DNA of 64,000 nucleotides from Branchiostoma floridae (lineage: Eukaryota; Chordata; Leptocardii; Amphioxiformes; Branchiostomatidae), in the NCBI RefSeq assembly GCF_000003815.2, contig NC_049990.1, forward strand, positions 8,940,290 to 9,004,289, given 5' to 3'. Each line of letters begins with the position of its first letter. Position 1 is the first letter of the stretch. Below are positions 11,685-51,000 of the stretch, piece by piece. Made by a program: the position numbers and the translations under genes. Below the pieces are notes generated by a model. It saw nothing but the letters and a program-made list of their open reading frames with translations. It was not told the origin of the DNA and did not search any database.

Positions 11685-12496
11685 CTTTTCTTTGGAGGTA
11701 CTGATGGGAGTATCCGCGCAAAAGCATATGCCCTTCTGACGATTTTTATTGCAACAAATTAGCACTCAATATATGTGAGCTTACTATGTATTTTATGTAT
11801 AAATAATCTTGATAGGTTTCACCGAATTACATGACAGTTTTACACAAATAAGTGTAATAGACGCTACTTTGATATCTACAAATTACACATTCAGAACCTT
11901 AGTGAAAGCACGGTAATTTAAGACCGCCACAAAACGGATATAAGTTGATATATCCTCCGCAATCTCATTATCTGTGTTGTTTGAACAATTTTTTCTCTTT
12001 GTTGACTACAAAAATATATTTTGTCGATAAAATTGGTTTAAAATTATAAATATTGCTGCAATTATGTCGTCAACATAAATAAAAGGCGATAAACTTTATT
12101 TGCGCATCGTTGCGGTGATGCACCTGTCAGCTATCCCGCCCGGTGGTTGATGGGCAATTTGGGTTATTCTATCTTTTAAGGGTGTATAAATAATACCTTT
12201 GAACAATATAAACAAAGATTTTGACGTTTTTAAAAGGAATATTTCGATACTAGTGTCCAAATTATCATTAAATTTGATTTGTAATTTGATTATATGACAT
12301 TTTTTTAAAATTTAAATGACTTTTTTGTTCGTTGTGTAGTATCTGGACATCTGAATATCTCAGTGGAAGAGTCTAACATCTAGGGTCAACGTACGTGAGG
12401 TCAGTGTTGCAAAAAGTTGCAAGTCTTGCATACATAGGAACGTCTTGCACCATTTGGGCTCGAGTTTTGCAGCTGCCGCGGAGGTTTTGCGGCACG
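11685..12496. promoter_or_regulatory. Shared intergenic region between divergent genes (putative bidirectional promoter)
   Basis: The 812 bases lie between the start codons of SPRYD7 (minus) and the FrnE-like selenoprotein (plus) and must hold both 5' UTRs and promoters. The middle is AT-rich; the flanks are more GC-rich, with CCCGCCCGGTGG near 12137 and CAGCTGCCGCGG near 12470. No canonical TATA placement can be assigned without transcript starts. Confidence 0.55.
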
Positions 12497-14983
12497 ATGG
12501 CGACCGGTGGGGGAGAGAAGCCCCTCATCAACATAGACGTGGTGTCAGATGTGATGTGACCCTGGTGTTGGGTCGGGAAGAGGAAGCTAGAGGTACTAAG
12601 GAACTTTCTATTCTACGTTTAAACTTTGACAAACTTTTAGGGGGCGTTTCTCAATATCTAGAAGTTACTCGAACCTTCATGTTTTTGACATTTAATCATA
12701 CTTGATCTAATTAATTTACTAAGCAAGGACGTTATGTTAGAGCAATGCTGGTCTTCCTAAATTTACCATGAAGTGTTGTCAAGATCCCCATATGCAGGCC
12801 CTCAGAAAGCATCTCCATATCTTACTGTTAGTCATGCATATTGTATATTGCACATACAGGAGGCCATGCGGATGTGTAAGGAGAAATACACCTTTAACGT
12901 CAGCTGGCAGCCCTACCTCTTACGACCCAACATGCCTTCAGATGGGATGGAGAAACCTCCTCAGTACAAGGGGTAATGGAGTAGCTACTGTAGTAGTAGT
13001 AGTAATACTAGTAGTTGTAGTTACTACAATTCCCCCCAGGTAGTAATAGCCTGGTATCCAGCCGTAATATAGCTCCCGAGTCTCTTCTCTCCTCTTTGCA
13101 ATTACGTAATTGCAAAGAGTAGAGAAGAGACTCAGGAGCTATATTACGGCTGGATGCCGGGCTAAGGTAGTAATACTAGTAGTAGGAGTAGAATCTAAGT
13201 GTCAAGGAAGGGCAACAACGGCCACAATGCTTTGATATCCGCCGGTTGCCATAGCAGGACCACTCTAGCCATTTCTTCATGTCAGCTAGGGTTCATAATG
13301 GCTAATGTTTAAAGGGCTTTTGAATCAACAAATGCACAAAAACGGTGTTATTGACCTCTTGTTATTTGTGCCCCAGGGTGAGCGACCATCTGAAGGCAGC
13401 CGGCCAGTCTGTGGGGATTGACTTCACGGGGAAGTGTCCTCGCTTTCCCAAAACCATCCAGGCGCACTGTCTCCTGGAGCATGCTGGGAAGGTACCGGAT
13501 GGAGGGAAGACTCAGGACAAGATGGCAGAAGTTCTCTTCAGGGTTTGTTTCTTTTTTTATAATTTGTTTTGCATAACCGGTAAACAACCTTTTGGCATAA
13601 CACACCAATTTTCGTGCAAGGTTCGTAAAACCCATCTGAAAGGCTTGAACCACTCACACTGGAATGGACCCCTACTCTTTTAGATAAGTGTGGTGGGTTC
13701 TTTAAAGTGCTTGAGGTATGGCTCTTCCCCAACATACTCACGTCACAGGACCTCCAATTGACGACCTGAGGAACGGCCCTAGCCAAAGCGANNNNNNNNN
13801 NNNNNNNNNNNNNNNNNNNNNNNNNNNNNNNNNNNNNNNNNNNNNNNNNNNNNNNNNNNNNNNNNNNNNNNNNNNNNNNNNNNNNNNNNNNNNNNNNNNN
13901 NNNNNNNNNNNNNNNNNNNNNNNNNNNNNNNNNNNNNNNNNNNNNNNNNNNNNNNNNNNNNNNNNNNNNNNNNNNNNNNNNNNNNNNNNNNNNNNNNNNN
14001 NNNNNNNNNNNNNNNNNNNNNNNNNNNNNNNNNNNNNNNNNNNNNNNNNNNNNNNNNNNNNNNNNNNNNNNNNNTAGGCCAATTCCTCAGGTCGTCAATT
14101 GGAGGTCTTAAGTGCCTTTCCCAAGGGCTCAAGATTGGTGACATGGCAGGTTTTGGACCCAGGTTCTCTTGGGCCTGAGCCCAAAGCGCTGCCGATTACA
14201 CCACACAATCTCACTGACTCTGTCCTTGCCAGGCGTACTTCACAGATGGCATGTTACCATCTGGTTACAACCTGGTGGAGCTGGCTAAAGAGGTGGGGAT
14301 GAGCCAGGAGGAGGTGGAACCAGTCATCTCCAGCCAGGACAACCAGACAGCTGTCTTCAACAAGGCAGGGCAGTACATGAAGGATGGAGTCACAGGTCAT
14401 TCATTATATGTGTCTCATTCTTAAAACAGCACAATTTAACCTTCTCCCTGTTAGATGACTTAGAATGGTTTAGGTCCCCCACTAATGGAACAGTTGATGC
14501 ATGCGGACTGAGCCCTCTGTGGTGGGGGCGCAGTGAAGTCTGGTTCAAAGGACTCAAGTGTGAATACATTGTGGTTCTGTTACATGTGTTTGTGCTTGAT
14601 TATTCCCTGACAGAAGAGGGATAGAGGCCAGTTAACACTTCATGCAAATGATTCCAAACCATAGCCCGGCAGAGTAGCTTTCAACGACAACAAAACATGC
14701 AGAACATTAAAAAAGATAATCATTAGCATAATTTGTATATACTCCTTGATAAACACTTATTTAGATTGCAAACCCTCTTGAAAATTTGCTATGGTTGATT
14801 CTCATTGGGATAATGTTTATAAATAATTGTTTTCTTTTTTTTTTAGGCGTGCCGTTTTTCTACATGAACGGCCGCCCGGCCTTCTCCGGTGCCCAGGACC
14901 CCGGCAACTTTGTCTACTGTTTCCAGAAGGCTGCGGAGAAGTTTCCTGCAGGAAAGGGTGGGGCTGGTCAGAGCTCCATGTGA
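12497..14983 (+). CDS. FrnE/DsbA-like selenoprotein (UPWC active site), complete, 5 exons
   Basis: Exons are 12497-12592, 12860-12972, 13377-13542, 14233-14395 and 14847-14983. The phases fit, giving 224 residues plus TGA. The fold is the DSBA-like thioredoxin family (Pfam DSBA, FrnE subgroup). It starts with a beta strand INIDVVSDVM, then the redox site and GKRKLEEA, a helical insertion, and a cis-proline loop GVPFFYMNGRPAFSGAQ near residues 180-196. FrnE proteins normally have CPWC in DV(V/I)CPWCY(V/I)GKR. Here codon 21 is TGA (12557-12559), giving U-P-W-C with Cys24 as resolving cysteine. The rest of the frame is open and well conserved, and a SECIS element follows at 15496-15562. TGA is therefore read as selenocysteine, not as a break. 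The likely role is thiol-disulfide oxidoreductase or isomerase; no signal peptide is visible, so a cytosolic location is inferred. The exon 4 donor is GTCATT, a weak one. Conventional gene calling would truncate the start. Confidence 0.92.
12557..12559 (+). other. In-frame TGA read as selenocysteine (Sec21)
   Basis: The TGA occupies exactly the position of the first catalytic cysteine of the FrnE CxxC motif, followed in frame by CCC TGG TGT (Pro-Trp-Cys). Upstream codons from the ATG at 12497 and downstream codons through the exon 1 donor at 12593 are in one frame. TGC or TGT would give the ancestral Cys, a single-base difference typical of Cys/Sec exchange. Confidence 0.93.
13049..13162. mobile_element. 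Near-perfect palindromic MITE in selenoprotein intron 2
   Basis: Two arms of about 56 bases (13049-13105 and 13106-13162) are reverse complements with only a few mismatches and almost no loop; the centre is TTGCAATTAC/GTAATTGCAA. The element is flanked by TA on both sides, which would fit a TA target duplication as in Tc1/mariner-type elements. That class assignment is inference. Confidence 0.8.
13580..13749 (+). repeat. Dispersed repeat family R1, copy 1
   Basis: It contains GGCATAACACACCA, then CCACTCACACTGGAATGGAC, CCCTACTCTTTTAGATAAGT, GTGGGTTCTTTAAAGTGCTT and a final CACAGGACC. The same ordered landmarks occur near 44030-44155 and 55045-55235. It runs straight into the inverted repeat and assembly gap that follow. 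Confidence 0.65.
13750..14106. repeat. Assembly gap inside a perfect 23-bp inverted repeat
   Basis: Ns fill 13792-14074 (283 positions). The 23 bases at 13750-13772 are the exact reverse complement of 14084-14106, and weaker pairing continues inward toward the gap. The gap therefore sits in the middle of a foldback element in selenoprotein intron 3. A hairpin there would explain why it was not assembled. Open frames running through the Ns are meaningless. Confidence 0.85.
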
Positions 14984-15495
14984 ACTGAAAAATCTACATG
15001 ACTACCATAACCTGAGAAGTCTAATTTTGAGTTTGCTCTTTCAATGCTATAGCAATAGTAATCTTTAACATACCAGAGCACTGTAGATGAACACCCTCTA
15101 GCAAGTAAATTGTGAATTGCAGTTAGCTCACAGTTCCATTATGTCAGCAACTACTTCTCAACATAAGGTTATCAGACAATGCCCTACCAAAATTGATACC
15201 ACAATCTATTGTGGTCTTGAGGATATGTTGAGCTTTTTCTGACAATCGTTATTCTTTCCTTGAAGTCAAAGGTTTTCTTTTAATTCTATGCAAGTTAATT
15301 AAAATTGCAGTATAATGGTCATTGCAAAGTCTTTATTTGCAGATAGACTGAACATTCAAATCGTATCTGTGTTATGATTCAACCAATTAATGACTTTTAA
15401 TGTGTAAATAAGAATACATCTGATTGGTCGGATATATGGTGCCTTTGGTAAAATGACTAATGATTGTTCTTGAGACATGAACTCTTGGCTGCCCC

Positions 15496-15562
15496 TGCTA
15501 ATGCTCCATGATGGCACTGGGCCCAACTGAATGCTCAGTGCCTGATAAACTTCAGCATTGCA
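15496..15562 (+). promoter_or_regulatory. SECIS element in the 3' UTR of the FrnE-like selenoprotein
   Basis: The core quartet is ATGA at 15508-15511 facing TGAT at 15543-15546. Helix II is ten pairs, GGCACTGGGC (15513-15522) with GCTCAGTGCC (15533-15542), with one G-U pair. The apical loop CCAACTGAAT carries the conserved unpaired AA at 15525-15526, 13 bases after ATGA. Helix I forms below an internal loop: AATGCT (15500-15505) with AGCATT (15554-15559), extended by TGC (15496-15498) with GCA (15560-15562) past one bulged T. These are the required parts of a eukaryotic SECIS, in the right spacing and on the right strand, about 510 bases past the stop codon. It recruits SBP2 and the Sec-tRNA elongation factor. 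Confidence 0.92.
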
Positions 15563-15579
15563 TGGAGGCTTTCTGTAAG

Positions 15580-15585
15580 AATAAA
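15580..15585 (+). terminator. Poly(A) signal AATAAA of the selenoprotein gene
   Basis: AATAAA lies 18 bases after the SECIS element, so cleavage near 15595-15615 would leave the SECIS inside the mature 3' UTR. The resulting 3' UTR is about 620 bases. Confidence 0.8.
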
Positions 15586-15615
15586 ATGTCTCAAAACCAC
15601 TGCTGCCATGTCATT

Positions 15616-17518
15616 TTTACATTATTTAGAGTTGTGTTAAAGATTGTATAACACCATGGTACCAAAGTACAGCATTATGTTAAACAACAATGATAGCATT
15701 ATTCCATTCATATGCACGTATGCATTTGCAGCTCCTATGTTACACCAAACCCTCTTCAAACCTTGAATCACGACAGATGATTTATAACAAAGAAAGGTTT
15801 GACTTCAGCTAAAGATACTTGTATCTATCATGGGAGTTAGAACATGCTAAAAATAAAGAAACATGCGGTGCCAAATTACATATGAAATAGTGATGCATGA
15901 CTCTTCCATGTAACTTTTGTTTTGTCTTCAGGAGTTTTAACTCTATTGTTTCACTCGATGAAATCCATTTCATTGTTTTTGCAAGGAGAGCTATGCCTAA
16001 GGATCATACTTATGTTGCTCTTTACTAGCTTTATATATACACCCGGACATGTTGACATGGTGCACTTTAATTGGTAGCGGACGATAATTGGTAGCGCTAC
16101 GCTACACGAAAGGTCAAGGGTAGGACTTGAATGACTTTAAAGATCCCGATTGGACGAAAACGAAAAGACGGCGTCTGAAACTAGTGTCCGATTTTCGGCC
16201 ACTAGACGATTAAAACATTCCATGACGCAAACCCTTACGTACCAGGTATGGATCAGCTTACCTGTTTATTTTATCTGAAACACCGTTTTGTGTGTAATCG
16301 CCCCATGTCGGATTTTCTTTCGGTCGTGTTCTGACACCATGTTTGTATGTAAGTACCGGTGTCTCCGCGCATGGCCAACTCCGCTTGAATGGAAACCTCC
16401 GAAAGCGTCAATAGATGACGTCTAGCCGGTCTAGGGCATTAGCGGGCTCTTCACAATACGTTCAATGGACGGGGAGTTTCCTAAACAGCTCCTCAAGGCT
16501 AAGATAAGTTGTTGTTTTTGTCGTTCTCTTTTTATTACAGGGTAGAGCTGCATTCCAATGTAGCCTTTGAACTCGGACAAATGTGTTTTGAATGTCACAT
16601 TTACGCACTTTGCTTTTTATGTGATTTGATATAATTGTTCTCACAAGTCGCATAGTATAATTACAACATTATTTCAAGACCGTTTGTAAAAGCCAACATA
16701 CGCAAGGCCTGCAATGTCTCATCGGAATTAGAGCGTTAACGTTTGTAATATGAAGCTGGTGCTTAATTCTGTGTGGTCTTGTGCAAGTTTGAGGCGACGT
16801 CATTATAGTATAAAGTAACAAAATACAGGGTCAGAATGTAACGTTAGTTGGGATAAAGTTTGCATATAAACATTACGATTGGAATAACACAAAGGCAAAG
16901 TTTTCATACTTGGCGATATGTAGCTTAAGTAACAATCTACGTATGTTTAAGTACATACAAATTTTTGGTTTTCACATATCTAGCAAAGTCATCTTTTTAA
17001 TACGAACTTTTGGAGGGAGGGGCTTCGAACTTGCTATCTGAGGCCGCGCCAAATATAGCAGATGTTTTCGTCTCGTGAGTACCAAAATGGGGTACATGTA
17101 AACGCGAGCCTGTTTCACCAACGCAAAAATAGATGGCCCTTCTCTATTTATCCAACACTCTCTTTCTACTCGCCTAGCTACTAGTACGTCAGCACTGGGC
17201 TAACTTTTGTATGACATCAAACACAACTTCCGACCAGTCACTGACCCGTACCTCTCTGTTAGGGCTCTATTTACTAACCCGTATTTCCTATGCCACAGTC
17301 AGCTGTTGGTGCTTGTGGGTTGAGATGTTCAAACTGTCCCTACGACGTGTTTTCTGTCTTTATTACCGACTTGTGCAAACGTTTCATGTCACGGTTTAAC
17401 CATTGACGTGGGTGTAGAGGTCATCAGATAACTGAGGTGTCCATTTCCGAGTTTCCCGCCATCGCCACAGACGTCTGCGAGTAATCCTACTTCATACCAA
17501 GGTATTTACAAACTACAA
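15616..17518. other. Intergenic; no gene recognised
   Basis: Only short open frames. AATTGGTAGCG occurs twice close together near 16070-16095. The part nearest 17518 is presumably promoter and 5' UTR of the exon starting at 17529. Confidence 0.5.
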
Positions 17519-24013: not shown

Positions 24014-27000
24014 GTTCGTATTGTTTAGTTATTTTTGCCGTTTTCTCGTTATGTCTCCTCATCTGTTGTTGAAAAACTTGAAATCCCTTTGCATATTGAC
24101 CTTAACGTTAGAATTTTGATCATGTTGATGGTAATTTAAGAAAGAAAATGGGATATTTTCTAACGGACTAGTTGGCATTATGGAAATGATGAGGTAATGG
24201 CGTCGAATTTGAAAACGTTATAACTGTCTCTACAGGCAAGCGGGCCAGCCATCCCCCGTCGCCGGGTCCTACCGCCACGAAAGCCCGAGTAGTCGCTGCC
24301 AGTCCACGGCTGGAGAAAATTCTGACCGAAAACGGAGAGAAAAACAAGACTAGAAGACAAAATCTGACCAAAAAACCGAGCGTAAACGACCTCGACCACC
24401 AACGACATGCGGACGTGACCAACTCGCAACCGTTTTCGAAGAAGTTGTTGCTACTCACGGAGGAGCATAAAACCCGCTCAGAAAAGAAAACCCGCTTACA
24501 GAAACTGGTCTTTGGTCGTAAAGGTAAGCTTGATATTCTTGCTAAAAAGCCTATCGGCGTAGAAAGCAAGAAAGTCGGCCCAGGATCAGAAAAATTCGAT
24601 GAAGAGGGTGGGGGACCCTCTTCCGGTACACACGATCCTGATGTAAACAAGATCGATAAAATCAGTGATGAGAAGGGAAGGGTTCCTGCAGTTGTACCCA
24701 GCGTTTCCTCTGATTGTGCCAGAGAGGATGCCATCTGTGTACTTCCATCAAAACACAAAGTCTCATTGTACAATGTAGAGAAAGGAGACGAAGGGAAATG
24801 TGAGAGAGTGAACAATATTGGGCAAGATACAGACTGTTCTAAGAATAGAGACCATGTCAGTGAGTCTACTGTTTTGAGTGAGCCTCAGACTATCGAACTA
24901 GACTCGAATCAGGACCCAAAGCCATCTGGAAAAGCTAGGAAAGTCCTAGGCTATGTGTCACCTTTACCTAAACCATCTTTAAGTAGGGCTGACCAATCAG
25001 AGAGATCGGTAGACGTGACTTTGGACGAATCAACTTGGAGTCTGTCGCTCGATGACAGTACGTTTAACAGTAGCAGTGTGTTTAGCAAGAGTTTTCGAGA
25101 GAAATTCAGCACGCCTACATCTGTGCGAAAGTTTGCGAGGAGTCACCTGGCCAACATTTTTACACCTCGTAGTCATACCAAGGGCTCAGATCGCAAGAAA
25201 CCTTCCATCGTACACCTGCATATTCCTTCGGATGTTGACGTTGAAGGGAATGACAAAAATTCTGGCGACACACGTAAGGGGACTTCTTTTGTAATCGCAG
25301 AAGCTTTGGAGAATGTCGTGCCGAAGGATATCACGAATGCTCCGCCAAAGTCAAAGAAAGGGTTAAAGTTCAATGGCAAGTCAAACAGAGAGATGGAGAG
25401 CTCTGAGTCTGACCAAAGCAGGAAAAGTGCAGGTGTTGTTCCTTTGAAGGTGAGCACTTTAAAATCATCAAAAGAAGTAACGTCTGTTGAACAAGTGCCT
25501 GTCACTCCGGCAAACAGGGTGGTCAGGTCACGACATGTAAGTACACCCACTACACCACGTTCAGCAAGGCCGACAGGTATTCCAACGCCTGTGAAGAAGA
25601 GATCGCAATCAGCAACCCCACAAAAATCAAACACTCCAAGTACACCTGCTAAAAGGGATGCCAATCTGGTACATTCAGGTGTTAGCGACAATGCAACTAC
25701 TGGTGTGACCAAAGATAAGGATGTAACAAGGGGAAGGACCCCCAGCAATGCACCTACAAGCAAGCAAGGTGCACCCAAGAAAGTCAGCAATGCATCATCC
25801 CTAAAACCTTTGCATACCAATGGAAAGCAAAGCACCGCATCAACAAATAAGGGTCCTAAAAATGGCCAAAGCCTCAAGCCAGGGCAGCCTGTGAAAAAAG
25901 TAAGCCAGGAGTCAAGAGTTCGAAAGGAAAGTGGGAAAACAAAGACTCCACAGAGCCCGAAACAACCACCCGCAAAACCGCAGACAGAGAAACCAGCAAC
26001 ACATGCCAAGCGGAGGCCGAGGGCAGCAAGACCCAAAACAATGGTCATAAAGAGTACAGATATAGTGGATATACCTTTGACTAAATCCAACTCACAGCCA
26101 GACCTAACAAATCTAGAGGCTACCAATGGAACAGATGCTGTCATGCCAACAAAAGAAGAGGAATCATCATCTAATAACACAAAGGAAAACTCAGTGTCAG
26201 AGCATCAAAAAGCCCCAAAGGTAGCCAAAAAGGATTTGCTGAAAGTCCCAGATAAAACAACTACAAGGAGGAGCCTTGGGAGGCCGGAAAAGGGTTTAAC
26301 ATCTGCGACAAAGAAAACGTCATCTGAAGAGGTTGACCCAGCTGCGGGTAGGAAAGCTAGCCAGAGAGCTGCGAGAAGTCTGGTCACTAATGCTAAACGA
26401 CAGAGCCTTGGGGTAGGGAAACGGAGAAGCATAACTCCTGCAAGAGGACCACGTCAATCTCAGACTGATAGTGGCTCCAAAGCTACCGGTACCACCAGGA
26501 GGACTGCACCTTCAAATGGAGGAAGAAGATCTCTTTTGCCTGAACCACAACGGAAGACACTCTCCAACTCTGTATCAAACACTCCACCAACAAGAGTCAA
26601 GAAAAGCTCGACCGATTCTTCCTCGTCAGACGGAAATGTAAAAAGGGATGATGGAACGCCACATGAAGAAAAGCCAAAGGTCAAGAAGCCTGCTGCACCT
26701 GCGGGAAGTGGTTTATCAAAAGGTTCCAAACAGGTGTTAGCGAGTAATGGAAAAAGTAAACAAGAGATCATATCCTCTACTCGTAAACCTAGAAACATGG
26801 TACCGGCTAGTACGAAGCAAGTACTGAAAACTGCAGCAGACGAGAAAGCAAGGAGAAGATCAGCACCTCCAACCACAGGAGCAAGGCCCAAGGGACAGTC
26901 TACTACACTTGAGACAAGAGGTATTGTTCAAAGACAGACTAGAGTAGCTCAAAAGCAAACAAGAGTCACAAAACCAGACAAGGAGATCAAGCAGGGAACA

Positions 27001-30000
27001 AGTGACCCACTTTCTAGGAATAGAAAGAAAAACACTGTAAAAGAAAAACAAGCTGTTGAGAAAGCAGGGATCGTTTCATCGCGAAGTTCATCAAATGAAT
27101 CTGTAAGTGACTCTAGTGCTGTAAAAGGTAATGATGCAGTCACAGTGTTGAAGGGCACAGAAGGAATGCAAACAAATGTTGAGCTCCAATGTACAGAAAG
27201 TGGGGCTAACCCCCAGGGCTTCACTGTGGGTAATTTGATTACGCCTAATACAGACAATGGAGAAAGCAATGGTCAATTAAGCCCAATTAGTGATGACCCC
27301 CTGGCAAGTAATATTGTAAGCATGGACAACTCAATAAAAGGCAGTTCGCACGAGCCATTGAGGGAACACAATGGAGCAGAATCGACTGACAAAAGTCAGG
27401 ATGTTAGCTCTACCTTTGGCGAAAGCAGGACTTTAGATGCTGCATCATCTGTGACGAAAAATGTTGTCGGATCAAAAGAGTTGTCAGTGGTTGATGTGAT
27501 TATAACGGAAACACCTCCACAGACCTCGGACAATGCTAATCGAATCGAAGTTCAGCAGGCGAGTTCAATAGAGAAAAGTTCAACTGAGAACACGCGTGCT
27601 GACATGGATCATGGTGAAGATGTGGAATTTCCCATGCAGCTTCACGTCTCTGTAGACGACGCGCAGGGTGAGAAAACAACGGACTCAAGTTCCCAAGTAA
27701 GTGGAATAAACACGGCTAAGGAGGCTGTTACCAAGCAGGAACAACAGTCGAGTGGGATCAGTACGGGCGCAGCTGAAGGATCTGACAAAGAAGAAACAAG
27801 GTTTGTCCAGCTGAAGATCCAAGACCATAGTGATGCAGTCATTTATGAAATGCTTGATGTGAGTCAAGGAGGACAGAAAGTCGGACAAGTCGAGAGTGAA
27901 CAGAAAGAGGAAGACGTGTCTTGCATTCAAGCAGAAAACAACAGAGGTAACTACGGCAAAACTCGGCCTCCGGCAATCCAACCTCCGGAATGTTTTACCT
28001 CAACTCTACAGGTTAAGCTGAAAAGTCAAAGGAATGAAAATATGCAAGTTGACACCCAGGAACGGAGTGCTGATAGTACCCAGGATTTGACTTGTAAGCA
28101 TAACAGTTCAAATATCATTCCATGCATGGAGGGGAAAACTGATAATGAACTTCCAGAAGACGTCAGTCAAAGTTCCGCCACTGACCAGAGCAAATATTTG
28201 CGTACAGCCAAGCAGAGTGGAAAAGACCAAGTCACGTGCAATGTCGTGGAACCAAGCATGAGTGTCAAACCAGATGACGCCGATACCACGGGCCCAAAGG
28301 AAGTTGGTAAACAGTTGTCAGAGGATACGATAAGTGGCGTAGATGATTTACCAAGGTCAACACGACCTTGTGACAGTGACGACGTGCTTGATGGATCCCT
28401 TGTATCACGTGGCATGAGGCGTGCACATGGTACTTTGTCCCTTGACAAGTCCAAAGGACAAGTTGCCTGCATATTTGACAGCCCAAACAACATTACAACA
28501 GCTACAGGCATGGTGTGTTTAGACAACATGCACTCTGATTTATCCTCAAAGGATGGGCATTTCATGCTACAAGAGCTTAAAAATTATGCAAACGATAAAA
28601 TGACAGATGCCGACAATGCCCCAGAGGCACTGAATGTTGACCTAACAAACACTCAAAAGTGCGAAACAAACCCTAAGACTAAAGATATACCAGAATCGTC
28701 AAAACCACTTGCAGACCATGACAAAGAGCAGGAGGCTGAACAAATACAAGAGGAAGACAACGTCAAGGCTAATTGCAAGGCGTTTCTATTTTCGGAGCTT
28801 GGAAGTCCACCGTACAGTCTAATAAAAGACCAACCCCTTCATTCCAGTTTACCCAACATAAATGGTGGTGAGGCTGTTGAGAAAGTGGCAAGCAAAATGC
28901 CCTCCCACATGCCAATGGGCTCCCCGCCCCCAGTACGAAGACGCAAGTCAGTCTGCTTTGCAAGCTGCCCGGCTAGTCCTACCGCACCGAGGTTGCGGCG
29001 ACGCCACAGCAGTTACATCCACCCATCCCTGATGGGCCACCTTCATCATCATCAGTCGCTATCAGCTGTAGATCGTCTCTATCCAGGCGGACATCTGCGA
29101 CGGACACTGTCTCTCTCCGGCGGTCACACGCCGTCAGAACTGTCGTCGGGACAGACCACTCCCAGCGCGAGGGGAAGCCATTCTGAACTGCACCTCAGTC
29201 CGCTAGTAAAAAGGCTGCAGGAACTTTGCGAGGAGGCCGAGATGGAAGAAGGAAGGAAGCTTCGGGAACTTTGTGAAGAAGTCCAGTGGGAAGAAGGACA
29301 AAGGCTTCAGAAACTGTCCGAGGAGGTTGAACGGGAAGAGGGAATCGTGTCTCAAGATGAAGCATTGAATGAGGTGAGAAATTTTGGAGTTGACAAAATA
29401 AACTCTATTGATAAAAGCTATATGATGATATGTATAGTAAATGGTTTCACAGATCATTACTGCAAATGGCAATACAGCTTCATTTTTCACTTTTGCTTTT
29501 CAAAGACAGTTGAAAATAAGCTAAGTACACATTGTCTTTGATCAGTAAAATGTTTGAGTCTTATCACTCATACTCATACTATAGTTTATTACAGCTTTTG
29601 ATATACTCAGACAGTTATGAATTCATATTTTCAAAAAGCAGTGCTTGGTGAAAATGAGATTGTGTGCCTACAGTTATGGGTCAGTCTGTATTCTCCAAGC
29701 AGATATTACGGTGGGTAGGGTCGGCTAGTACTAGTAGTAGCCTGAAAGTCATTCTAGTTAGTTTACCTGGGCTCCTGTATGCTCCCCCCTCACCGAGCAT
29801 ATGGGAGCCCCAGTAAACCAAACAGGCCAGTTGCAGGGGGGTTGGTAGCGGCCACAATTTTTCCTCTGCCACCCTCCACAGATGGAGGAAAGAAATTGTG
29901 GTCACTAGTACTAGCCTCCTGGCAGACCTCTTCTTGGAGAATAGGGAGACGCATAGTCTTCATGTGTCTCTCTTAGTCTGTTCTCCAAGCAGAGGTAGAC

Positions 30001-42000: not shown

Positions 42001-45000
42001 CCTATAATGATTTCCTTGGACCTTGGTGTATTGGAACCATTGAGCTGCTTTCTGTTCTTTGCAACTGAGCTTGCTCAGGTCTACAAACTTGTTTGTAAAT
42101 GGTGTATCAGTTTGGACATTTTCATCCTGTTCCTTAGCTCTTAGTTATAAGTTGCATCCATTTATAATGTAGTTGTGAGAAGAAAAACAGGTGCTATACC
42201 CACATGTATCTAAAGATTTTGATGTACCAGAGAAATTCTCTGAGAACTGCCACGCATCAACTAATGATACAAGTGAACGATTGATTGATTGTCTTGTACA
42301 ATGGACTCATAGGGGCATTGCTTGCACGTAGGATTCCTGTCCTAAGAATAACATAGGCCAACATGAGTCACTACATCTTGACCGTTAGGTCGAAATGCAG
42401 ACAGCAGGATCGATGACCAGTGTGTCACCACTTGAACGATACCAAACACCCTTTCCATAGACTAACGTAAGCTTCATGCCCTGTCACCATCAAATCCGCT
42501 TGCTTGCAGATAGCTACTTGTTCTACGTGGTCAAGCTAGCATACCGTATGCAGGGCTTACTATACATTCAGGGTGCATATGTGCACTTTTATGCACCCAA
42601 TACTGGAGCTGTGTGCCTTATTATTCACAAAGGTTGCACATATATAGTTTAGTACAGAATATTCTTGACATTTTAAGTTGGAGAAATTGTATTGTATTAC
42701 TTAAGAAAGTAATTAGTTACAGTTATACTTTTAGTTATATCCTGAGTATTTCTGATTGCATGGGAAGTTAATAACCTGGTGAGGATTTCCTGTATATGAT
42801 TATAACAAACTTCCTGTTCATGACTCATAATTCCTGGTCAATTTTCTTCTTAAGCTTCCTGTCGTAAATTTCATTTTCGTTATCATCCAGCCATGATTGC
42901 AGTTATGCCTGATCTTTATCATTTATATCAGGTCTGTCTCCAGGACCCGTCCCTCTGTCCCGAACAGAAGATGAATCATTCTAAAAAAATTAATCCCCAA
43001 AATCTGAACTTCATGACATAAAATGGATGTTAATAGAATATTCTTACATCAGTGACTCTTGAGAATTTAAAGATGGATACAGCCCTTCACAGTCACTGTA
43101 ACAGTTATAGAAATTAAATACAATGTATAAATGATTTTGTATGTCTTTGAACATAAACCTGTCCATTAAAATCTACATTTTGTGTGCAGTGTAAAGTTTA
43201 ATATTATTGTAATCCTTTCCAGTAGCCACTCAGTTTGGCTTATGTGCTTTAGTTGTAACTTGTACTATTCTCGGCATGTTGTTTGTGGGTGGGAACCTCA
43301 AAGCTTGGCTTATCTGAGGCAGGTTAAGTATTACATGGTCCCCATGGTTTCCTGTGGCCTTCTGGCTAACTGTGTGTGGCCAAACCTACTTAATTCTACC
43401 ATAAAGTTAATCATTACACCCGCTTTACTGGCACAAGTTGGCACTACTGGGCCGTGTAGTCTAGAGTCAAGAAAACAGACTCCTGAGTTTCAACATTTCA
43501 TTTTGTCTGGAGAGCCTTAGGCCATGTAGATGCAATTATTTGGTTGACATCTGCGCACACATCAATTTCCATCCGTTTCCATACTACAACAAAGCAGCTG
43601 CATAATGTCTGAGCAAATATTTGCTGTTAATTGCAAAAATATTATCGGAAAACAGATCTAAGTAGTCGTAGAAGGCCAAAGTCAATTCCAAAGTCAAAGA
43701 AGAAGATGATAATATGAAAGAACAAAAATTAAGAATCTATAATTGTTCATATATACTGCGTGTTAAGTCATTTTTTCAACCTCCCTGACCACTTAGATTT
43801 TACATTGAAAGCAATTCTTTTTTAATTTTCACAATGGCATCTCAGAGGTTGTCATACATGCAATTGAATCAATATGGCCTAACATGTGACACATACATGT
43901 AAAACAAGGTGAAAGTCCATTGCTGGCACTGCAGATGTTTTTCAATCATTAATGTAGGACTGTGTCTTGTGACTCCATCAAGATTTTTGTTACAGACTGT
44001 GTTTTCAAAGTCAAATGGTTGAAAAATCTTCTGTAACAATTCTTCCTGAATATTAGATGGTTTGATCCACTCACAATAGGAAGAACCCCTACTTTTTGCA
44101 ATAAGTGTGGGTTCTAACATGCTCAAGATGTGGTTCTCCTCAAACACAGGACTTCCTTTATAAAGTTTATTTGGACAATGCAACAACAAGGCTTTAAAAC
44201 TTCATATTTGGGAATAGGTACACCGGTGTACCTAACATAAATGTTAAGTTGCACAAAAAATTTTGGGAGCACAAATTACTTGAAGTCAAATAGAATGTCA
44301 CCAAAACCTTACTGCTCCTGCGCATAGCATGAATCTGAAAATTCTATGGCCTAGCTTTAGAAAAGTAAATCAGAAAGGTTCCAATATTTGTACTTAGATA
44401 TCAAGATTATACTATTTACTGGTGAACTACATTACCTTGCATGTAACCCAAAACTAATACATTTGGCATCAGGTACTGCATATTTTGAGCCCTTGATTGT
44501 GGACTTTGCGATTTCTCAGTAAAGGGCTACTTTTAAGCTTGCTTCAAACTCACAGGAAACAGTTAGCAGTTTTATGTTTGCTGAGTCATGCTGATATATT
44601 GCTCTCATTCTTGATAAGGTGAAGTAGGAAGTCCTGTTACTTTCTCCATTTGCTTTAATTCATTTAAGTATACCGGTCCAGATCAATGAGTTTCTATTAC
44701 CCCTTGGCACTCTCACTAGGTTTCCTAGACAATGACTAGTCATCACAGGTAGCGTCACTATTGTCAACAGCACTTGTTTGTTTGTTAATGATTATCCAAA
44801 GCTACGTCAACACCTGCCAGGGTCCTCCATTGCCGATCTGTCACACCTGTACCAATACGTGCTTAAACACTGTTTGCTGTTTTCCCACCCCTGTAGGCTC
44901 CCACAGGCTTGAATGGTCGGCCGTCTACGGGAGAGGAGGGAAAGAATGGGGCGCCGCACACCGCAAACAGAGCCGGCTCCGAAGACAAACGATCAGGCAG

Positions 45001-48000
45001 AGGGGCGTTAACAAGCGAGGGGCAGCTGAGGGTCAGTCACCATGAGACATCAATGCTTTTACCACTTCCGTTGACATCATCGTCACAACAAGAACCCGAA
45101 AGCAGCAACCGACAGAATAACACAAGGAAAAGGGTGTCTACTTCAGATGTACCGAACTGTGTGAACACCAGACCGACGACGTTGACCAAATCTGCTTCGG
45201 AGCCTGCGTTTGTTGTGGACGGCAAACAGCAGAAATATGTCATCGAAATTCACCTGTCTCCTACGCAAGAGGTTGTAGCAGCTGGCGAAGACCAAAAAGT
45301 TGCGAGAGAATCTGTAGAACACGAACACGAGAGTGTCTTTCTTGAAGGAAACGCGCCCTCTGTAGTTGTGACTTCTCCCGAAAAAAGACAACGGAATCCT
45401 TTCACCAGGAGCCAAAGTTTGCCTGTGTCTCCCACAATAAATATTGTCCCTTGTGGGGACATGCATGATAAGCCTGACCTACCTTCCAACATGGCAGAAG
45501 TAGAGGACGCAGATGATGACTGGACGCGTGTGGTTCCCAGGGTCTTGCAGAAGTCTGACAGCATCTCAGTTCCGGAGAGTAGTGGCGGCCCTTTTCGACG
45601 CTGGTCACGTTCACGTACGGATAGCATGAATGAAGCTTTGAATGATGAAGGTCGGATTGAGATGACAGACAAGGAGAAATTGCGAAGTCTTGACATTGAC
45701 AAGGACCGGGAAGTCATCCACGACATAGCACACTTTCTTGAGACCCAAAATGAGAAACCAAATAGCTTGCCACCAGACTCCATGCTTACTGTTGCGCCTG
45801 GTAAGATTCAGAAGTTGGAGGTGGAGTCTCAGAGTCAGAGTCTACCATCCTCGCCGATGCCAAGTCGTAGGGTAGGAAGGCATTCTCTGAGGAGTCTTCC
45901 AGTGTCCCCCCATCCCGAGAATCAACCTGAAAGATCTCGGTCAAGCACCGATTCCTTGGACGAGCACCCAAGAACAAACTTTCTCACTGCCCCTGTGCAA
46001 CCTGAGCGGCCAGTCACCCCAAAACCTTACAAGAAACCAGCTTCGTCTTCGAATTCCCCGAGCTCTTCTTCCCCGAGTTCTTCTTACAGCCATCTTTCTG
46101 TGAATAGCCCCCCTCCCGCACGACCTGTGACCCCTAAGCCGCACATCAGGCCATCAACTTTGTCTGGTTCAAGTTTAAGTCCAAAGTCATCACTACTTGA
46201 CATTCCACAAGAGGACTCGGTCGTGATGAGACCCATAAGTCCGAAGTTTGCTACCATTACAGAAAATACAGACGTTCTAGCGCCACAAGCAAGGCTGTCA
46301 GCAGAGCCCCAGTCTACTGGATCTCCACAGCTTGCGAAAAACAGGAGTAGAAAAACAGCTTTGTCTGCAAAGCAGAACCACGTGCTGATGAGGATTTCAG
46401 CGGCGGGAAGCGAGGATAGCGGGCTGGGGGATAGCCAATCACAGCTCAATTTGGCTGTTCCGTCATCGGAAGACAAGTCCTTGCAAAAGGTGAGTTGTAA
46501 AAAACTGTGATCAGCACTGTGACATAATGTGTTAGTTCGTTGATGAAGGTTAGACATCCAGGTAAGCCAAATAGCAGTTACTCACTGACAGATGTTTCAG
46601 GCAGAATACACCTAGTCTACCTTTCATCAATGACCCCTTCATCAGTGATACCTGACGAAAGGTAGTGCATGCTGCCTGAAACGTCTGACCATTTCCAAGA
46701 TCATATCCCAGGGCTCGAAATACATTTTGTACACTTTTCAGTCAACTTGCACCAGTGCAAGTTAAGCCAAAGGTAACTTGCACCAAAAGAAACTTACTTG
46801 CACAACCCAAAATAGTGAACTGTTAACCCTTTATTCTTCTTCTGAAAATTTGCAAATATATGGTGATACATAAAGACCACATGTTTGGATATTTGTTTTC
46901 CAAAGCGTATTTTATTTTGGATTTCAAATTGTACAACAAATGTGAATTTAGGCTTAATTTAAGACAATTCAATGTCTGTATAACTTGATAAGATCAATAG
47001 ATTTCTTCTGGACTCTTCGAGTGACTTCCATCACTATTCTTAACCATCGCTAGAACAACTCAAGACAAACACATATAACTGGAAAATCCAGTTGATCATA
47101 TCAAAGTCACTAAATTGTATGCAAAATGTATTTACTCATATGCAAATCAAGGTAAGACAACACCATAGGAATTATTAGCATTATAGAGATGGAATTGTCT
47201 TCAAATTTTGTTTACCTGGATGTCTAACCAAGTTTAGAAATAACAAATTTAGGCTATTTTTTTATTCAGTGTTGTTTTCTTTTACCTTTCAATGGCAGAC
47301 AATATTCTTGGTGTGTGTAAGCTTTTTCTAAAGTCAGGTATTAGTGGATAAAAGTAACTTGCACTGGTGCAAGTTTGGTCCAAACTTACTTGCACCACAC
47401 CAATTTTACATGCACAAACTTGCATATGCATGTGGTATTTCGAGCCCTGTATCCAGTTGCTTGAGTAACTTCTACAAAATGTATTTGGCATAATGTGTTA
47501 GTTCATTTGTCATCCTTACTAGATAGCACTTCAGAATCTGCCCTCTAGTATGCATTTGTCAGGTAAATCAGCATGATGTTTGTGCCCAATCTCACACATA
47601 TACGGAAAAAAATTGTTTTGTATCCCCTGTTCATGAATAAACTAATGACAAAGCTGATGGTGTAACATACTTTTCCCAGCAGAGGTAAATATTAATTCTC
47701 TTAACTTTATCATTTAGGTCATCCATTTGCCTGATCAAATAAGGTGAGACAGGACTGTCTCAAGGACATTTCCCTCTGAGACCCTCACAGAAATTTTGGA
47801 TTTGGAATGAAAAATTCCATCCCGTCCATCCAAAAAACACGAAATTGGGAAAAATGTATTTTCAACATTAGATTTAGGATCGTGAGCTTATAAAAAAATA
47901 ATGACAGATTGTACATGCATTGGGCTCCCAAACAATGAGTGGGGCAGAAAAATAAAAAGCTGCATGGAGACAGCACTTTGTGAGGACACTATCTATAGCC

Positions 48001-51000
48001 AATTTTATGTCAAATTGTATTTAAGGGATATATAGCATTGGGGTTGACAGGATCATGAGGTGTATGAAGTGAAGTGAGATATGAATTGAAGATAATCTTG
48101 ATCAGGTACTCAGTACTCATTTACACCTGAGTAGAGTAAAGAATTTGGTATTGATTGCCTCACCCATGCACGGGCACAATATTGGGAGCTGTCAGGGATT
48201 TGAACTCAGTCAGTGCCTCCAAGGTCATAGTCAACAATCTTAACCCTTAAACTGCCAAACCCAGATATATCCGGCACATATAATACATGTCTTGTGTGCT
48301 GCACCCAGATATATCCGGGATGTATTGCAAACCCCGGAAGTTAGGGACTTTGGCCTTGTCCGGGGGGTTTTTGGAGGTCAGCAGCCAACCCTGGCACTGA
48401 TAGCATTTTATAGTGCTGAAACTCTGGCAGTTTAAGGGTTAAGATCACATTTTAGGCCACCCATTCAAAACTGATAAGTTTTCATTGTTGTGCTGCAATG
48501 GTAGTGCTAACAATACACGTCTCTTTTTTAAATCCAGGATGCTCCAAATGTACAAACCAATGAAGAAACCGTCAGATACAGACGGGCGACCAAACAGCGG
48601 CGACGCAGACCAAAGAGCGATCTGGGCTCTTGGGTTCAAAAAGCGCCCGTAAAATCTCGCCGGCCATTGACTATCCACGGAACACCCCACCAGGAAAGCA
48701 TTGAGGAGAACGAACACTCAGATGATGACAGTACAGATGGAAAGAGTTTGGATAAACTAACATCTTTAAGAGATGCTATGAACTTATTTACAGTGGACAG
48801 TCCTAAACTGAACAGAAGGGTAAGTACAAAATGTGTCTATGATCATATTTTAAAGTAAAACCATCGTGAACATATCAAGATTTACAGTACTTGGCTTCAT
48901 TTCGTACAAAATAAAAACTTGTGATTCAAATAAGATTTTCCTGAACATGTATAATGGTTGTAACCAGGGGATACACAAATTTTTGGTCTATGTTTCATTC
49001 TACAACCTTTGTACTGTAACAATGTTATACTTTTGCGTGCACTGCAAACATGGGCGCAAATTAGACTACTAAAACTTAAAAGTAATCAATAACTTTAAAA
49101 TGTTGTTCAAACTTTATTTTATGCTGTAGGTGTTATTGTTTAGTCGCTGGAATTACATGTATTCTTAGCACATTGGTAACATCTGTAATTTCTTTCAATT
49201 GTCCCATTATTGTTTTTTCCAGTTTTTCATTTACTTGACATGTTGGTTTGGCTGTTCATAATGCAGAGCCAGGACTGCCCAACTATATATAGCCTGTAGC
49301 TATGACAGAGATGTATTATGTACATGTATTATCATTAGTCTTAGAGAAGTTTATATTGATGTTTTTAAGGTAATTTTATTCGTAATTGATGTTTATTAAT
49401 TTTCAATCTATCTTCTTTACTTTCAGAATACTGTGCACCACATGCTTGGGTCACCTAACCATCCAGGCATAACACAAGTTAGTACCAAAGTCTTATGTTC
49501 TCTGTTCACGGTCCTTGTAAAATTTACTCAGTGAATTATGTATTTACTAATAATAAATAATATGTAGAAATTCTTAATTGTAATTGCTAAAATCTTTTCC
49601 ATATAATGAAAGAAATTGAAAATGTTAGATGTATCTAATAATGTCAAGACATTTGTTTTGTGTGTTGTGTAGTACTAGGAACTTGTTTTCACAACTTTTA
49701 TTTGTTTGCAGAAAATGTCTGGAGTAAAAGAAGAGTCTACCACTCCAAGAGCTTACATGCGAACTGTCAGTGCATACAGCCCTCCGATGGGGACTCCTGC
49801 ACTCAAGCGCTCTCGTAGCACACCCTGCAGTCTAGATAGGACCGGGAGGAGAAGAATACATTCCATAGGTATCTACTCACAGCCTCCTATTCTAAGTTAC
49901 CGTTTAGACCACTAGAACTGCTCTTTCTGAGGGATCAATGGAATAGATGTTACTTTAATGATATTTAGTACAAGGCTCGCAATACCGAGGACATCCACAC
50001 TTTTGCATACCCATAATTGGAGCTGTGCACCTAATTTTTGACTGTGGCTGCTCCAGTGCACCTAGATATTTATTTAGGGTTATTTACATTGTAATGTAAA
50101 AAGGTGCAATCCATAATAGAATTTGGGTTCATCACAATTGATAATATTTGCCTAACAGTGACTTCCAGATTCAGCCTGCAAGTCTGGACAAAATTTTTTT
50201 CTCTCTACTTGTTTTATTTACATTGTACTGTTTCCTTGTGCACCAAATCCATTTTTCTGTGTACCCAGATTTTCAAGGTTAGCTGCACCAGTGCACCCAC
50301 TCCCCAAAATATCTTTAGATTGAAGCTTCTTTGGACTAACATGTTTTACTGTTTGTTCTTTATTAGCAGATAAGGGGTCAGGCACGCCGCGATCCACAAC
50401 AGTCGCAGTCGAGCTGAGTGGCCCGTCGTCTGACTCGGAGTCTGATGACGACAACGAAGCGACAAGCGTGCCGTCGTCACCAGCTGTCAATCGTCGGTCG
50501 AGTTTCACTGGGATCCCTCCTGGTCAGGACATAGATGAGGTGAGTAAGACAATCGTAACGCGAAAAATGTTCTTGTGGCACCTTAGATAAAGACAACATT
50601 AATATGTAACTGAAATTACACATGTATATACTGTAAATCTTGACATATTTGCTGTGGTTTTATTTTTGCGTGCGTAAATGCAAACTTAAATCACCATGAA
50701 AACCTCCTAAAGTTTCTTATCTTATTTTGAAGCAAAGTCCCACAAAAATTAACAGTACAGCAAGACTTCAGAAATCCTGTATCATGGTGTTGATGCCACT
50801 CTTTGGGCTTATTTGATGTGCTGTAAATTTCCATTGTTGCTGTCTCGTACTGCAGTGCTTTCTAGAAAATGAATTTCAAAGCTTTCTTTAATGTGGCCTT
50901 TCTAATTTCCTACTGTGTTGCCATAGATACAATTTAGTCAATTTTATATCCTCTCTATGTAATTAGATTCATACATCATATGATGACAATTTCATTTCAA

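Follow-up and report, generated by a model that had tools for sequence, protein, structure and literature searches.

A five-exon gene with one in-frame TGA

The window analysed here, a 64,000-nt stretch of the Branchiostoma floridae genome (contig NC_049990.1, positions 8,940,290 to 9,004,289), carries on its plus strand a five-exon gene for a protein of the DsbA/FrnE type, the joined reading frame of which contains a TGA codon at the active site. The coding features of the gene are as follows:

12497..12592, plus strand: coding part of exon 1, MATGGGEKPLINIDVVSDVM-U-PWCWVGKRKLE, from the splice join and aligned to FrnE and bacterial homologs
12557..12559, plus strand: in-frame TGA, here read as selenocysteine (Sec), residue 21 and the U of the active-site motif UPWC, from the joined frame, with Cys in 8 aligned homologs
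12860..12972, plus strand: exon 2, bounded by GT-AG introns with the frame kept
13377..13542, plus strand: exon 3, from the splice join
14233..14395, plus strand: exon 4, from the splice join
14847..14983, plus strand: coding part of exon 5 with the cis-Pro loop GVPFF, from the splice join and the FrnE alignment; the stop codon is the TGA at 14981-14983

When spliced from the genomic sequence, the five exons give 675 nt, that is, 224 codons and a stop, and all four introns begin with GT and end with AG. The TGA at 12557-12559 is the sole internal stop in this coding sequence, which bears out the single 224-residue frame with one TGA that had been proposed in the initial annotation. The GC content at third codon positions is 0.71, against 0.40 for the window as a whole. 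In the unspliced genomic sequence the nearest in-frame stop upstream of the start ATG is a TAA at 12374, 123 bases away, and if the 5′ UTR is taken as unspliced, no further in-frame ATG lies between the two. A protein search of the genome (513 Mb in 431 contigs) scored six candidates and returned five matches, one per exon, all of them at this locus alone.

The introns and the remainder of the window hold some features of their own. Intron 2 contains a near-perfect palindrome (13047-13164) of two 59-base arms that are 93% complementary and have no spacer, and it resembles a small mobile element of the inverted-repeat kind. In intron 3, 283 consecutive N at 13792-14074, the only N in the window and outside all exons, may mark an assembly gap. 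Two long open frames lie farther downstream on the plus strand: one of 1782 codons (24193-29541) that on inspection has many Ser, Lys and Thr residues, and one of 537 codons (44897-46510), Ser- and Pro-rich by eye and with repeated RPVTPKP-like motifs. Neither matched a Pfam model at E values up to 0.01; the longer one probably represents a single large exon in a gene for a disordered protein.

The TGA codon occupies the position of the nucleophilic cysteine

The encoded protein matches the Pfam DSBA family (PF01323) over residues 13-203 at 107.6 bits, where the cut-off is 25.6 (E = 9e-31); no NCBIfam model matched it at that model's own cut-off. Its best relatives of solved structure in the PDB are two FrnE sequences, 5cp1 and 5cnw, the latter represented by four more entries of the same sequence (E of about 2.5e-23), and this similarity indicates the fold. 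We take these FrnE chains to be DR_0659 of Deinococcus radiodurans. The amphioxus protein resembles this FrnE in its DSBA thioredoxin domain, in the CPWC or UPWC site and in the GVPFF loop, and would differ from it by a Sec where FrnE has its first active-site Cys. In the pairwise alignment, residue U21 and the loop GVPFF face the leading Cys of CPWC and the GVPFF of FrnE, respectively.

A search of plasmid records found 788 with a homolog, and from the 40 of these that were listed we picked eight for alignment, leaving out clinical-sample records and near-duplicates, among others. All eight bacterial proteins, which are 29-34% identical to the query, have Cys in the column of the TGA, and the columns corresponding to UPWC (residues 21-24) and VP (residues 181-182) are invariant as C, P, C and V, P. 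Similarity to these homologs and to the PDB FrnE runs on across both flanks of the TGA. The order of a CXXC-type site followed by a cis-Pro loop, as in FrnE-type DsbA, is thus present, with Sec as the proposed replacement of the first Cys. By simple arithmetic, a TGA placed at random in the frame would fall on residue 21 with a chance of about 1/224. Scanned against bacterial and archaeal genomes as a lone query, the protein gave 24 pattern matches, none of them confirmed as a relative.

The alignments therefore uphold three claims made from the unaligned sequence, namely that the TGA falls on the first, nucleophilic Cys of the CPWC motif, that the resolving Cys is kept and that the cis-Pro loop GVPFF is intact. 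Taken together, these data provide good support for a product of the DsbA/FrnE type in which Sec serves as the UPWC nucleophile and the resolving Cys is retained.

The same alignments bear on a different reading of exon 1, in which the TGA would belong to the 5′ UTR or act as a true stop, translation would start at an ATG in exon 2 and the product would lack the active site. Two in-frame ATG codons do lie near the beginning of exon 2 (residues 35 and 37), and the original database model of the amphioxus gene placed the exon with the Sec-TGA in the 5′ UTR, which the 2010 report describes as a misannotation (PMC2874816). Against this, exon 1 is conserved at the protein level on both sides of the TGA, a start in exon 2 would cost the protein its catalytic motif, and a SECIS-like element lies downstream of the coding sequence. 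We regard this reading as very improbable and rejected a stop in the 5′ UTR.

A SECIS candidate lies in the 3′ UTR

Downstream of the stop codon, two further features accompany the gene:

15508..15546, plus strand: SECIS candidate, with ATGA at 15508-15511, a 10-bp helix (15513-15522 with 15533-15542), unpaired AA at 15525-15526 and TGAT at 15543-15546, from a descriptor and energy folds, with no Rfam match
15580..15585, plus strand: AATAAA polyadenylation signal shortly after the SECIS candidate

The candidate begins 525 nt past the stop codon, its helix includes one G-U pair, and the AA lies in the apical loop. Other AATAAA or ATTAAA signals occur at 15298 and 15852. A 111-nt stretch around the candidate folds with a z score of -2.7, and 2 of 200 shuffled sequences folded equally well. 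The 10-bp helix is common to two energy folds, which disagree on the stem beneath the helix; in one fold the ATGA is partly paired. A descriptor of the element (ATGA, 10-bp helix, AA, TGAT), written after the candidate had been seen, finds one site in the 1017 bases past the stop; among 4000 order-1 random sequences of equal length, 21 contained a site. In the whole window this after-the-fact descriptor finds two sites, the second at 50785 on the minus strand; 60 random 64-kb sequences gave 0.32 sites on average and at most two. The Rfam SECIS model had no match in the window at its gathering score, nor in 14850-16400 at E values up to 10, so the case for a SECIS stands on the geometry of the hairpin and on the published report discussed below. 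The initial annotation had invoked a SECIS without giving coordinates, and none lies inside 12497-14983; the candidate described here is farther downstream.

The genome also contains tRNA-Sec genes, as expected of a eukaryotic host of selenoproteins. The tRNA-Sec model RF01852 listed 12 matches, four of them over the cut-off, and ARAGORN assigned three of these four to tRNA-Sec with anticodon TCA and one to tRNA-Ser.

The gene belongs to a known selenoprotein family

A DsbA with Sec, together with its SECIS, was described from B. floridae and two Ciona species in 2010 (PMC2874816), and the paper names XP_002210295 as the B. floridae record. As described there, the Sec-TGA of the B. floridae gene lies in the first exon and the open reading frame was completed by extension of aligned ESTs; the ESTs stop short of the UTR, and the SECIS was found by SECISearch in the downstream genomic sequence, with an AA motif and a COVE score of 18.83 (PMC2874816). 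The window gene is like the Branchiostoma and Ciona genes in having Sec for the first Cys of CXXC and the Sec-TGA in the first exon, and the amphioxus gene has, past its frame, a SECIS with the AA motif that is also seen in the window's SECIS candidate (PMC2874816). On the published description we find no difference between the two amphioxus genes, and the single Sec DsbA counted for B. floridae in 2012 (PMC3473315, Table 1) agrees with the one locus found here. The window gene is almost certainly identical with the B. floridae selenoprotein DsbA gene of 2010.

This earlier record also bears on whether a Cys codon could have become TGA by sequencing error or by a recent nonsense mutation, leaving an animal with the Cys form or a pseudogene. 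TGC and TGT are each a single base away from TGA. However, the remaining frame is unbroken and its splice sites are correct, there is a SECIS candidate at 15508, and the 2010 frame, built with ESTs, has the Sec-TGA at the same place, as do the two Ciona species (PMC2874816). An error or recent mutation is accordingly an extremely remote explanation. We likewise rejected a pseudogene, given the intact frame, the correct splice sites and the SECIS candidate, in agreement with the initial view that the gene is not decayed. A chance frame was considered and rejected.

In the 2012 survey, Sec DsbA was counted once each in Lottia and Capitella and twice in Nematostella, Amphimedon and Trichoplax were given the Cys form, and the Sec family was described as lost or replaced in vertebrates (PMC3473315). 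SelenoDB 2.0 carries the family under the name FrnE (DsbA), in a text whose relevant part leaves Branchiostoma unnamed (PMC3965025), and Sec forms of FrnE or DsbA are likewise reported from algae (PMC6627142, PMC7539508). The suggestion that the gene might be little described and lineage-specific does not hold in view of the reports from Branchiostoma and Ciona in 2010 (PMC2874816) and from Nematostella, Lottia and Capitella in 2012 (PMC3473315). Because Sec DsbA/FrnE has been published from amphioxus and other taxa, the window gene represents a correct rediscovery: it is a real selenoprotein gene that was already known.

Predicted activity of the amphioxus protein

We conclude, with a probability of about 95%, that this locus encodes the Sec-containing version of amphioxus DsbA/FrnE and that a SECIS in the 3′ UTR directs the insertion of Sec at the exon 1 UGA. 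The product is probably a cytosolic thiol/disulfide oxidoreductase with a DSBA domain; the cytosolic location is suggested by an N-terminus that has, by eye, no hydrophobic leader. FrnE-type proteins are predicted to be cytosolic thiol oxidoreductases, and the D. radiodurans protein acts as an isomerase and reduces insulin in vitro (PMC8945050). In the amphioxus protein, the predicted role of the Sec21 selenolate is to attack a disulfide of the substrate, or to create one by way of a selenenylsulfide, with Cys24 resolving the Sec21 intermediate and the loop around cis-Pro182 binding the substrate. The activity is most likely that of a Sec-based disulfide reductase or isomerase.

D. radiodurans FrnE has a C-terminal CXXXXC motif, a proposed helper in regeneration of the active site (PMC8945050), whereas this motif is absent from the amphioxus protein, which has one Cys within its last 23 residues. 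The motif occurs in many but not all FrnE proteins, and those of D. maricopensis and S. roseofulvus also lack it (PMC8945050). It is conceivable, if rather doubtful, that Sec21 compensates for the missing CXXXXC relay of many bacterial FrnE, making the protein a cytosolic Sec oxidoreductase that relies directly on glutathione or thioredoxin reductase for its regeneration.

The value of this locus as a discovery is small, as the amphioxus gene, its TGA and a SECIS have been in print since 2010. What the analysis provides is confirmation, in this assembly, of a selenoprotein family that has a Sec form in several marine invertebrates.
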